DNA of 64,000 bases, taken from Jannaschia sp. Os4 (GTDB lineage Bacteria; Pseudomonadota; Alphaproteobacteria; Rhodobacterales; Rhodobacteraceae). The translations under genes and the position numbers were made by a program. Numbering within the stretch: the stretch's first letter is position 1; the number at the start of each line of letters is the position of its first letter. The stretch lies in assembly GCF_016820245.1 (NCBI RefSeq), contig NZ_JAFCAR010000005.1, positions 62,001 to 126,000 on the forward strand, written 5' to 3'. Below the pieces are notes generated by a model that was given only the letters and a program-made list of their open reading frames with translations, was not told where the DNA came from and did no database searches. Shown here in pieces: positions 15,377 to 63,638 of the stretch.

Positions 15377-16804
15377 ATGGAAATGCCCGTCCCCCGCGAC
15401 TTCGTCCTCGCGCGCCGCGCAGAGGTGATCGAGCGACTGCGCGCCGTGCTGCCCGCCGACGCGGTGGTGTCGGACGAGACGGAACTGGTGGCCTACGAGT
15501 GCGACGCGCTGACCGCCTACCGCTGCCCGCCCTTGGCCGCCGTGCTGCCGCGCTCGACGGCGGAGGTCGCGGCCGCGCTGCGGGTCTGCCACGACCTGAG
15601 GGTGCCGGTGGTGCCGCGCGGGTCGGGGACGTCGCTCGCGGGGGGCGCGCTGCCGACGGCGGACAGCGTGATCATAGGCACCGCGCGGCTGACGGACGTG
15701 CTGGAGGTGGACTACGACGACCGGCTGATCCGGGTGCAGACGGGGCGCACGAACCTCTCCGTCACGGGCGAGGTGGAAGCGGACGGGTTCTTCTACGCGC
15801 CGGACCCGTCGTCGCAGCTGGCCTGCGCCATCGCGGGCAACATCGGGATGAACTCCGGCGGAGCGCACTGCCTCAAGTACGGGGTCACGACCAACAACCT
15901 GCTGGGCGTCACGATGGTCCTGATGGACGGCACGGTCGTGGAGCTGGGCGGGGGCGAGATGGACGCGCAGGGCCTCGACCTGCTGGGCGTGGTCTGCGGC
16001 TCGGAGGGGCAGCTGGGCGTCGTGACGGAGGCGACGCTGCGAATCCTGCCCAAGCCCGAGGGGGCGCGGCCCGTGCTGATGGGGTTCGACAGCAACGAGG
16101 TGGCGGGCGCCTGCGTGGCCGACATCATCGAGGCGGGCGTCCTGCCCGTGGCCATCGAGTTCATGGACCGCCCGATCATCCGCATCACCGAGGACTTCGC
16201 GCAGGCGGGCTACCCCGATTGCGAGGCGCTGCTGATCGTGGAGGTCGAGGGGTCCGAGGACGAGATCGAGGAGCAGCTGGCGACCATCGAGGCCATCGCG
16301 CGCCGCCACGACCCGGTCGAGCTGCGCCGGGCGGCGAGCGCGGACGAGAGCGCGGCCATCTGGCTGGGGCGCAAGTCGGCCTTCGGCGCGACGGGGCGGG
16401 TGGCGGACTACATCTGCCTCGACGGGACGATCCCGGTCAGCGAGTTGCCGCGCGTCCTCAAGGGGATACGCGACCTGTCGGAGAAGTACGACCTGAAGGT
16501 CGGCAACGTGTTCCACGCGGGCGACGGGAACATGCACCCGCTGATCATGTACGACGCGAATGGGGACGGCCAGTTGGAGAAGGTCGAGGCGATGGGGGCC
16601 GAGATCCTGAAGCTCTGCGTCGACGTGGGCGGCTGCCTGACGGGCGAGCATGGCGTGGGCGTGGAGAAGCGGGACCTGATGTCCCATCAGTTCGCGCCCG
16701 CCGACATGGAGGCGATGATGCGGGTAAAGGACGTGTTCGACCCCGCGTGGCTGCTCAACCCGGCGAAGGTGTTCCCGCTGGCCACCTCGGAGGCGCGGCG
16801 GTGA
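15377..16804 (+). CDS. glcD: glycolate oxidase subunit GlcD (FAD-linked)
   Basis: A 475-residue flavoprotein that oxidises glycolate to glyoxylate within the GlcDEF complex. The PCMH-type FAD domain is clear: PVVPRGSGTSLAGGA near residue 78, FFYAPDPSS, and IAGNIGMNSGGAHCLKYG. The C-terminal FAD-oxidase_C domain carries the metal-site motifs HAGDGNMHP and GEHGVGVEK. GGAGG sits 9 bases before the ATG. The promoter/operator at 15319-15354 lies immediately upstream. About 30 bp after the stop begins an unusual repeat element that separates it from glcE. Confidence 0.95.
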   Translation: MEMPVPRDFVLARRAEVIERLRAVLPADAVVSDETELVAYECDALTAYRCPPLAAVLPRSTAEVAAALRVCHDLRVPVVPRGSGTSLAGGALPTADSVIIGTARLTDVLEVDYDDRLIRVQTGRTNLSVTGEVEADGFFYAPDPSSQLACAIAGNIGMNSGGAHCLKYGVTTNNLLGVTMVLMDGTVVELGGGEMDAQGLDLLGVVCGSEGQLGVVTEATLRILPKPEGARPVLMGFDSNEVAGACVADIIEAGVLPVAIEFMDRPIIRITEDFAQAGYPDCEALLIVEVEGSEDEIEEQLATIEAIARRHDPVELRRAASADESAAIWLGRKSAFGATGRVADYICLDGTIPVSELPRVLKGIRDLSEKYDLKVGNVFHAGDGNMHPLIMYDANGDGQLEKVEAMGAEILKLCVDVGGCLTGEHGVGVEKRDLMSHQFAPADMEAMMRVKDVFDPAWLLNPAKVFPLATSEARR

Positions 16805-16834: not shown

Positions 16835-16943
16835 CGGTATCCTTACCGCGCGGTGGGGGGGCGCCCCCTGTGCATCCCCCGTGCACCCCCCGTACACCCC
16901 CCGTGCATACGCGCGTGCATACGCCCGTTCATATCTCGTTAAT
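16835..16943 (+). repeat. modular repeat element 1: small palindrome, G/C palindrome and GTGCAT tandem array
   Basis: Three modules in order. First, CGGTA-TCCT-TACCG (16835-16848). Second, GGGGGCGCCCCC (16857-16868). Third, seven cores starting at 16870 (GTGCAT), 16881 (GTGCAC), 16892 (GTACAC), 16903 (GTGCAT), 16915 (GTGCAT), 16927 (GTTCAT) and 16938 (GTTAAT), so spacings are 11, 11, 11, 12, 12 and 11 bp. Cores decay away from the palindrome. A second copy with the same order is at 63555-63638. It lies in the glcD-glcE gap and codes for nothing plausible. Confidence 0.8.
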
Positions 16944-17042: not shown

Positions 17043-18110
17043 GTGCTGAGACCGGAGAGCGAAGATGCGCTGGCCGAGATCGTGCGCGGGGCGAACGGGC
17101 TGCTCGCGGTGCGTGGGGGCGCGACGCGGCATGTGCCCGGCGCGGGCGAGCCGCTGACGACGGCCGGGATCGCGGGGATCGAACGCTATGAGCCGGGCGC
17201 GCTGACGCTGGTGGCGAAGGCGGGGACGCCGGTGGCGGAGATCGAGACCGCGCTGGCCGGGAAGGGGCAGCGGCTGGCTTTCGAGCCGATGGATCATCGG
17301 AGGCTGCTGGGGACGGACGGCGCGCCGACGATCGGCGGGGCGGTGGCGATGAACGTCTCGGGGCCGCGCAGGGTGGTGGCGGGGGCGTGCCGGGACTTCC
17401 TGCTCGGGTGCCGCTTCGTGGACGGGGAGGGGACCGTCGTCGTGAACGGCGGGCGGGTGATGAAGAACGTGACGGGCTACGACCTGACCCGGCTGATGGC
17501 CGGGGCGCGCGGGTCGCTTGGGGTGCTGACGGAGGTGGGGTTCAAGGTGCTGCCCGCGCCGCAGGCCTCGGCGACGCTGACGCTTCCCGTGGCGGATGCG
17601 GGGGCCGCCGTGGCGGCGATGTCGGCGGCGCTGACCTCGCCCTTCGAGGTGACGGGCGCCGCGTGGGACGGAACGTCGGTGCTGCTGCGGCAGGAGGGGC
17701 TGCCGGGGTCGGTGGACTACCGCGTCGGCGCGCTGTCCGCGCATCTGGCCGCCCACGGGGCCGTGGCCGTCGAGCGCGACCCGGAGGCGGTGGCGGCGAC
17801 ATGGGCCGAGGTGCGGGACGTGGCCGCGTTCCACGGGGGGGACGATGAGGTGTGGCGCGTGCACGTGCGGCCGTCGCGGGCGGCGGAGGTGGTGGCGGCG
17901 ATGCCGGGACGGGCGGTGATGGACTGGGGCGGGGGGCTGGTCTGGCTGGCCGTGCCACCGGGGACGGAGGTGCGCGGGGCGCTGCCCGCAGGCTATGCGA
18001 CCTTGGTCCGAGGGCAGGGCGCGGCGCTGCACCCGACGGCGCCGGAGGTGGCGACACTCGAGGCGGGGCTGCGTGCGAGGTTCGACCCCAAGGGGTTGTT
18101 CGCGGCCTGA
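17043..18110 (+). CDS. glcE: glycolate oxidase subunit GlcE (FAD-binding)
   Basis: A 355-residue FAD-binding subunit of glycolate oxidase, needed together with GlcD and GlcF. It has a shorter PCMH domain than GlcD (VRGGATRHVPG, FEPMDHRRLLG, TIGGAVAMNVSGPRR) and the diagnostic VMKNVTGYDLTRLMAGARGSLG. The GTG at 17043 (LRPESEDALAEIV) is taken as start because conserved sequence begins there. An earlier in-frame start would translate through the GTGCAT array and the GAGTATTT repeat, giving an implausible Val-His-Thr-rich leader. Its stop overlaps the next start (TGATG). Confidence 0.9.
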   Translation: MLRPESEDALAEIVRGANGLLAVRGGATRHVPGAGEPLTTAGIAGIERYEPGALTLVAKAGTPVAEIETALAGKGQRLAFEPMDHRRLLGTDGAPTIGGAVAMNVSGPRRVVAGACRDFLLGCRFVDGEGTVVVNGGRVMKNVTGYDLTRLMAGARGSLGVLTEVGFKVLPAPQASATLTLPVADAGAAVAAMSAALTSPFEVTGAAWDGTSVLLRQEGLPGSVDYRVGALSAHLAAHGAVAVERDPEAVAATWAEVRDVAAFHGGDDEVWRVHVRPSRAAEVVAAMPGRAVMDWGGGLVWLAVPPGTEVRGALPAGYATLVRGQGAALHPTAPEVATLEAGLRARFDPKGLFAA

Positions 18111-63554: not shown

Positions 63555-63638
63555 GGGAAATCTTCCCTCTTTCGCCCCGCACGGTGGGGGGCGCCCCCCG
63601 TGCATATGGCGTGCATACACCGTGCATACATCGTTCAT
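63555..63638 (+). repeat. modular repeat element 2: small palindrome, G/C palindrome and GTGCAT tandem array
   Basis: The same order as the element at 16835-16943. GGGAA-ATC-TTCCC (63555-63567) comes first, then GGGGGGCGCCCCCC (63586-63599), then four cores at 63600 (GTGCAT), 63611 (GTGCAT), 63622 (GTGCAT) and 63633 (GTTCAT), exactly 11 bp apart. Both copies share the junction CGGTGGGGGG-CGCCCCC-n-GTGCAT and begin 14-31 bp after a stop codon in the same orientation, here that of recN. Confidence 0.8.

Follow-up and report, generated by a model that had tools for sequence, protein, structure and literature searches.

Phased repeat arrays spaced along Rhodobacteraceae chromosomes: putative binding sites of a small RHH protein with a possible role in chromosome organization

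Arrays of a short word repeated at a period of 11 bp form a family that is dispersed along the chromosomes of Jannaschia sp. Os4 and other Rhodobacteraceae. The period is kept, the arrays are widely spaced, an array lies upstream of the gene for a small ribbon-helix-helix (RHH) protein, and the repeat word changes between lineages together with residues 54 and 58 of that protein. From these sequence patterns we infer binding, cooperativity, autoregulation, and purpose. It is very probable that the arrays are the binding sites of the RHH protein. The best explanation overall, which we consider probable, is that the arrays bind an autoregulated RHH protein and that chromosome organization is the likeliest purpose of the binding. 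The choice of chromosome organization as that purpose, rather than control of neighboring genes, is tentative when judged by itself and could well be wrong.

An array of phased hexamers between glcD and glcE

The window, by which we mean the whole stretch of DNA that was analyzed (64,000 nucleotides), contains two arrays. The features that bear on them are:

15377 to 16804, plus strand: glcD-like gene, upstream of the array; best NCBIfam matches are GlcD models, below cut-off
16835 to 16848: inverted repeat CGGTA-TCCT-TACCG, upstream of the array and outside the family
16857 to 16868: G/C palindrome GGGGGCGCCCCC, head of the element, an optional feature
16870 to 16943, plus strand: array of seven hexamers, proposed to be bound by the RHH (BrnA-domain) protein
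17043 to 18110, plus strand: glcE-like gene, downstream of the array; best NCBIfam match is GlcE, below cut-off; start codon provisional
63586 to 63599: G/C palindrome GGGGGGCGCCCCCC, which heads the second array of the window
63600 to 63638, plus strand: second array (GTGCAT, GTGCAT, GTGCAT, GTTCAT) with an 11-bp period, 58 bp past the recN stop codon

The hexamers of the first array start at 16870 (GTGCAT), 16881 (GTGCAC), 16892 (GTACAC), 16903 (GTGCAT), 16915 (GTGCAT), 16927 (GTTCAT), and 16938 (GTTAAT), exactly the seven hexamers at steps of 11, 11, 11, 12, 12, and 11 bp that had been described in an earlier note on this DNA. The placement between glcD and glcE given in that note agrees with the best models of the flanking genes, GlcD and GlcE, both of which score below the NCBIfam curated cut-offs. 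The G/C palindrome that the note had reported ahead of the array was located at 16857 to 16868; its core GGGGCGCCCC is present in 8 of 26 own-genome copies and is therefore not a constant part of the element. A "14-bp palindrome" that had been proposed at 16835 is instead an inverted repeat, CGGTATCCTTACCG, with 5-bp arms and a 4-base loop, and it was seen in 1 of the 26 own copies. The pattern GTGCAT-N5-6-GTGCA occurs 4 times in the window, compared with 0.05 occurrences expected from shuffles. A scan of the whole window with Rfam returned no family at gathering scores. The second array (63586 to 63638, after recN) has the same orientation as recN. We predict that the first array exerts no specific control of glcD-glcE.

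A family of arrays in Jannaschia and related genera

A search of the genome of strain Os4 (3.54 Mb in 10 contigs) with the element identified 27 places at an E value of ≤1e-4, the query included. A profile of 26 copies yielded 47 rows at E ≤ 1, corresponding to about 29 distinct strong places when rows under 1e-4 were counted and split matches were merged by hand. The copies have a common phase and a graded order of words, with GTGCAC or GTGCAT near the head and GTTCAT and GTTAAC in the tail, and their flanks are mostly unlike. Some of them have common tails past the array.

When the same profile was run against 60 genomes (E ≤ 0.01), 10 had matches: 9 of 20 within the genus, counting the own genome, with 1 to 68 matches each; 1 of 16 from other genera of the family; and 0 of 24 from other families. 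The earlier note had made its reading depend on further copies in the genome and on conservation in relatives, and both were found, in about 29 own copies and in relatives with up to 68 matches. The number of matches swings from 0 to 68 between congeners. Such a range within one genus is odd for a vital architectural system, and other repeat words (see below) explain part of it.

A pattern scan of 84,980 species genomes found at least 120 stretches, and the 80 loci among the matches listed all came from organisms whose names, by our reading of the titles, belong to Rhodobacterales. A profile built from 48 loci (R2) had matches in 9 of 149 genera of the family, and a short profile of three repeats (R3) had matches in 31 of 295 genera, with per-genome counts that are lower bounds from the best 23 candidates scored in each genome. 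The spacers vary in other genera (CCCCC, ACCCC, AACCC, CGCCC, and others) and GTRCAY at 11 bp is retained; the invariance of the word is by construction in R3 and its alignment, which were built by choosing GTRCAY, and the word-free tests described below are free of that choice.

The own element had no match in the plasmid collection PLSDB, and a Nioella element matched 8 Leisingera plasmids, on which the arrays (H1 to H8) lie at spots without annotated features. A single IMG/VR contig had a match; this viral contig (L237) carries a three-repeat GTGCAC array. Among the open-licence papers listed, no description was found of the element (letters GTGCACCCCC) or of a named Rhodobacteraceae repeat of its kind.

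Several minor features of the arrays were also observed. At loci L343, L356, and L465 of the congener G005, a longer common sequence follows the arrays, which suggests composite repeats of several hundred bases. Eight draft contigs of G015 (C12, C27, C32, C33, C42, C72, C73, and C81) end within about 150 bp of an array, and arrays thus seem to break assemblies. GTTAAC(C), which resembles a CtrA half-site, often follows arrays at a short distance, and in many genomes it is found before the RHH gene as well. The alphaproteobacterial LexA box is GTTC-N7-GTTC and the CtrA box is TTAA-N7-TTAA. Both have the 11-bp direct-repeat period, and GTTC and GTTAA are present in the tail of the array between glcD and glcE. 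However, the core word here is GTRCAY, and a LexA or CtrA reading of the tail was set aside because most arrays shown from other genera lack such a tail within the array.

A small RHH protein encoded next to an array

One gene family recurs beside arrays with side and strand unchanged. It encodes a small protein and follows an array in each of Jannaschia, Nioella, Planktomarina, Leisingera, and Roseovarius, where it lies downstream. All three of the proteins scanned matched the Pfam domain BrnA_antitoxin (PF14384), with 48, 49.3, and 51.5 bits against a gathering score of 26.1. NCBIfam gave no match above cut-off for the RHH protein. The AlphaFold model was poor (mean pLDDT, 54.5), too poor for a fold search, and the RHH assignment rests on Pfam. 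No homology to MatP was found in the protein, for which Pfam gives BrnA and no PDB chain was matched at E ≤ 1. The five neighboring proteins scanned at three RHH loci (G000, which is the own genome, G008, and G193) were ACP synthase III, an MGS domain protein, ALAD, an AAA protein, and an HD protein. Neither a BrnT-like toxin gene nor an actin-like motor gene (parM) was present among these five, a scan that left small neighbors aside. When the own protein was compared by tblastn with 72,556 plasmids and 50,697 phages, nothing matched at 1e-5.

A profile search with the protein in 80 chosen genomes found a match in 53 (E ≤ 1e-4): 16 of 20 Jannaschia genomes, 20 of 25 GTRCAY-positive genera, 4 of 4 genomes reached through loci, and 13 of 31 GTRCAY-negative genera. 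The positive sample comprised 25 of 30 array-positive genera besides the own (all but G093, G190, G244, G259, and G279) and the negative sample 31 of 264. In all 11 genomes that had both an array list and the gene (G000, G001, G005, G008, G013, G015, G030, G192, G193, G194, and G195), an array is located 60 to 290 bp upstream of the best gene match and on the same strand. Second copies of the gene have no GTRCAY array in G005 and G001 and have one in G193. Eight rows of protein matches contain in-frame stops, and four of these are among the 30 proteins compared below.

No protein match at E ≤ 1e-4 was found in 5 of the 25 GTRCAY-positive genera (G024, G091, G182, G290, and G296), and G290 has at least 6 array matches. 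G019 has one weak array match and no match to the RHH gene. Array-positive genomes of this kind either count against the pairing of protein and array or represent missed or lost genes.

Repeat words change together with residues of the protein

In genomes negative for GTRCAY, other words at the same 11-bp period were found upstream of the RHH gene. By eye, the word upstream of the gene is GGGTGAYC in G004, G011, G016, G014, and G018, GTGTTAY in G012 and G017, and GTTCRTGCA in G066, with further words elsewhere. In a word-free test, lags 7 to 17 were compared over 330 to 420 bp upstream of each of 50 gene copies, and lag 11 ranked first outright in 41 and shared first place in 2 (26 plus 1 tie in a batch of 30, 15 plus 1 tie in a batch of 20). 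Lag 11 was not unusual relative to other stretches of the same locus in 4 of the first 30 (G010, G134, G035, and G113), and the best lag was 12 in G010 and G035. The gene copy of G022 lacks a convincing upstream array, those of G028, G035, and G113 and the second copy of G001 have weak ones, and in G194 the best lag-11 window differs from the array. The helical phasing pointed out in the earlier note extends well beyond the one array, with the 11-bp period kept across genera while spacers and word change.

If another word stands before the gene, further arrays of that word are predicted in those genomes. At least one array of the genome's own word was found away from the gene in 5 of 5 genomes sampled at 100 to 200 kb each (G004, G011, G012, G017, and G066), and the 15 off-word combinations in these samples gave 0 matches. 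Of all spacings up to 20 bp, pairs of the own word in the five genomes show 11 bp exclusively. Sequences simulated 20 times for each genome never contained the own word and gave one off-word match, in G066. A word-free scan of seven gene-positive samples returned 11 windows, all at known arrays, and recovered 11 of 15 known arrays; the four missed were both arrays of G004, one of G008, and one of G066. The same scan over 200 kb of G002, which is without the gene, found no lag-11 window. Lags 9, 12, and 15 gave 0 to 3 windows per sample, and lag 11 is distinguished by its matching words more than by number.

Comparison of 114 columns in 30 aligned proteins (19 from GTRCAY genomes and 11 from genomes with other words) ranked position 58 best, with R in 19 of 19 versus 2 of 11, and position 54 second, with R in 19 of 19 versus 3 of 11; T56 ranked fifth. 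This test counts related genomes as separate, and they are not independent. In a second batch of 20 proteins, the 11 with R-T-R all had GTRCAY upstream and the other 9 were without it (by eye). G134 and G075, which have R-T-G and R-T-A, read ATGCAC, the other strand of which is GTGCAT, and they were counted with the other words. Alternate residues of the RHH strand touch bases. Residues 54, 56, and 58 alternate on the strand before the first RHH helix, which is presumed to be the DNA-reading strand. Such strands are paired in the RHH fold, as set out in the part of PMC5016525 cited here.

Genomic position of the arrays

The copies are mostly intergenic and occur in either orientation to transcription. 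Junction classes were assigned with a simple codon-scored gene caller. In 120 loci of three Jannaschia genomes (G000, G008, and G005), 109 sites were scored, once 7 loci in which fewer than two hexamers were chained, 2 that fell inside a predicted gene, and 2 that lacked a full pair of neighbors had been removed. There were 60 tandem, 33 convergent, and 16 divergent junctions among the scored sites, compared with 86 tandem, 20 convergent, and 40 divergent among all remaining junctions of 60 bp or longer in these loci (convergent versus divergent, P = 0.0005). The 80 loci of other genomes gave the same preference: 67 sites with both neighbors were 34 tandem, 19 convergent, and 14 divergent, compared with 156, 38, and 68 (P = 0.04), with 5 loci flagged inside a gene and 8 without both neighbors dropped. 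Seven loci were flagged inside a predicted gene in the two sets. At tandem junctions 43 arrays run along transcription and 51 against it, so no fixed orientation to the upstream gene was found. Where the upstream gene shares the strand of the element, the median distance from stop codon to array is 27 to 60 bp in the three genomes.

The junction before glcE can be compared between species. An array precedes glcE in 3 of the 19 congeners that have this gene (the own genome, G005, and G008), with a gap of 230 to 477 bp; in the remaining 16 the gap is 39 to 76 bp, without an array. Arrays are thus gained or lost. These gaps extend from the upstream stop codon to the glcE protein match, and the upstream gene in G005 is only presumed to be glcD. 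Many congeners (for example, L297, L307, and L296) have a leader, GCCTCCGGCGG...TATTT, ahead of glcE. The array lies before this leader in G000 and after it in G008, and thus the two arrays occupy different points of one junction.

Among 27 own scored sites, 9 have a flanking gene in common with one of 40 scored G008 sites, and 3 have both, a count that omits a weak pair (L016-L274, 32% identity). Rough numbers of sites and genes give an estimate of about 0.5 common-flank sites by chance. Where junctions are orthologous, only the array can be recognized from one species to the next, and its flanks, compared by eye, do not align. On a wider scale, 14 clusters of neighbors span two or three genera, and one site has both flanking genes common to Jannaschia and Nioella.

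Spacing of the arrays along chromosomes

Spacing was evaluated in nine genomes picked by copy number rather than by spacing. The first and last arrays of each contig were fixed and the others scattered; contigs with fewer than three arrays were dropped, matches within 500 bp were merged, and 150 candidates were scored per genome, so that weak arrays may be missing from the lists. Short gaps were fewer than expected in 9 of 9 genomes. In the pooled data, 17 gaps were below a quarter of the genome mean, compared with 50 expected, and 0 of 20,000 simulations were as low. The deficit is marked in G008, where 1 of 45 gaps was under 20 kb (11.4 expected), and in Nioella (G193), where 0 of 40 gaps fell short of a quarter of the mean (7.1 expected). 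Taken alone, the own draft genome and the closed chromosome of Roseovarius (G192) show weak over-dispersion, with shortest gaps of 9.0 and 3.6 kb, respectively. The usual distance between arrays is ten or more kilobases. On the G008 and G192 chromosomes, where origin and terminus were roughly placed by sampled skew, the sites are spread out and are not clustered at the terminus.

Two further observations concern the Roseovarius chromosome. Array strands occur in blocks (16 runs versus 24 expected, P = 0.01), and no array was listed in the approximately 520 kb that span the start of the record. The sampled GC skew gave no clear two-arm pattern from which to read replication polarity.

Proposed role and alternative explanations

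In the simplest reading, each repeat word would be read by one unit of the RHH protein, and the period of about one helical turn would stack several units along one helix face, much as ParR of plasmid R1 stacks on 11-bp repeats in the part of PMC9426499 cited here. The array before the RHH gene probably provides autoregulation, and the protein-array nodes would be spaced along the chromosome. The cooperative binding of a protein that the earlier note had suggested gains support from the conserved period and from the candidate cognate protein found by sequence comparison. A role at the level of the chromosome rather than of single genes is suggested because the arrays are widely spaced, indifferent to strand, and avoid divergent promoters. 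It is quite possible, if far from assured, that this is an undescribed chromosome-architecture system of Rhodobacteraceae, in which one small RHH protein would act on mutually repelling phased arrays across the chromosome, each lineage having a private word set by residues 54, 56, and 58, such that lineages could not read each other's marks.

Known systems offer partial likenesses. ParR/parC (type II partition) also pairs an RHH protein, assigned as such here through Pfam, with tandem direct repeats upstream of its gene. According to the cited portions of these sources, ParR of R1 needs at least two 11-bp repeats and repeat families and proteins pair specifically (PMC9426499), and parC repeats surround the operon promoter or precede it, and the operon is repressed (PMC5016525). 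Unlike in ParR/parC, no motor gene is present among the neighbors scanned at three loci, the sites are dozens of short (3 to 7 repeats) dispersed arrays, and the own protein has no plasmid match. MatP, in the portion of PMC12756933 cited here, binds DNA through an RHH domain and organizes the Escherichia coli Ter macrodomain from more than 20 sites on the chromosome, and by analogy MatP/matS may serve as the nearest working model for the arrays (RHH protein, many sites). The MatP sites are confined to Ter, in contrast to the spread of the arrays, and Pfam gives BrnA rather than MatP for the protein studied here. The matS site is also a single short site with no phased array, unlike the arrays described here. 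BrnT/BrnA shares the Pfam domain PF14384, above the gathering score, in an RHH protein, but no BrnT-like gene was found among the five neighboring proteins scanned at three loci, and the arrays number in the dozens across the genome. REP and BIME elements are likewise dispersed, intergenic, in either orientation, and often at gene 3' ends; however, the arrays are phased direct repeats, not palindromic units, and have a co-varying protein.

RHH proteins are commonly repressors, and the arrays might be the operators of an ordinary repressor or activator at 30 to 70 target genes. The array upstream of the protein's own gene, the flanking genes common to 9 of 27 own sites and G008 sites, and the neighbor clusters that recur across two or three genera, including the Jannaschia-Nioella site with both flanks in common, would all fit such a regulon. 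So would the tandem layout, which is like that of ArcA boxes, two to five direct repeats mostly 11 bp apart from center to center in the part of PMC3798270 cited here; sites of the ArcA/OmpR/PhoB family, however, belong to another protein family, the arrays are not promoter-linked as a rule, and nothing in the present data points to a response regulator. Operators would not be expected to prefer convergent over divergent junctions (33:16 versus 20:40, and 19:14 versus 38:68), to be about equally oriented with and against transcription, or to repel one another along the chromosome, and we regard a regulon as unlikely. A mobile intergenic repeat of the REP, BIME, or MITE kind, spread by transposition machinery, is more improbable still. 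It would account for the range of 0 to 68 matches among congeners, the long glcD-glcE gap where an array is present, and the tails common to some own copies, and over-dispersion would be expected from target immunity, which would produce wide spacing. Yet neither constant boundaries nor target duplications were noticed by eye, the copies have phase and word in common but not full-length sequence, sites recur at one junction between species while their flanks diverge, no plasmid or phage matches the own protein, and mobility alone leaves the matched change of residues 54 and 58 unexplained.

Two further explanations fare worse. The earlier note had raised the possibility that the element stops, pauses, or processes the glc transcript, and a terminator, Rho-loading site, or processing site at gene 3' ends would be consistent with the short distance to stop codons on the element's strand, the C-rich strand, and the G/C palindrome of some copies. 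The nearly equal orientation at tandem junctions (43 with and 51 against transcription) and the many arrays at convergent junctions speak against that proposal, and a transcript element was set aside on mixed orientation. The window also contains no Rfam family, other words are less C-rich, and an RNA-level element would leave the 11-bp phasing and the correlation with the protein unexplained, all of which makes this reading highly improbable. The least credible alternative is a DNA structure formed without a dedicated protein, such as a G-quadruplex, i-motif, or Z-DNA. Several G tracts are present on the G-rich strand of some copies, and GTRCAY alternates purine and pyrimidine. However, a pattern of four C tracts, each 3 or longer and separated by loops no longer than 8, was seen in just 3 of 26 own copies, on which basis a G-quadruplex was set aside; 4 of 5 other-word arrays tested were without the four-tract pattern on both strands; by inspection, the alternation needed for Z-DNA is broken by spacers and by other words; and word and protein change together.

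Site-specific systems known to mark an entire bacterial chromosome are few, and the binding of the arrays by the RHH protein, with chromosome organization as its likeliest purpose, would add a candidate in a large, abundant marine family. The natural series of matched proteins and DNA words presents a recognition code that can be tested by direct swaps. If correct, this explanation would also account for intergenic repeats being spaced widely and nonrandomly, and it would assign a function to a group of "antitoxin" proteins without an adjoining toxin gene.

One genome may run two protein-word pairs. The second RHH gene of G005 (L562, G005:C40:176272-177280), the strand of which reads K-T-R, has its own upstream array, GTCTGC at 11 bp.
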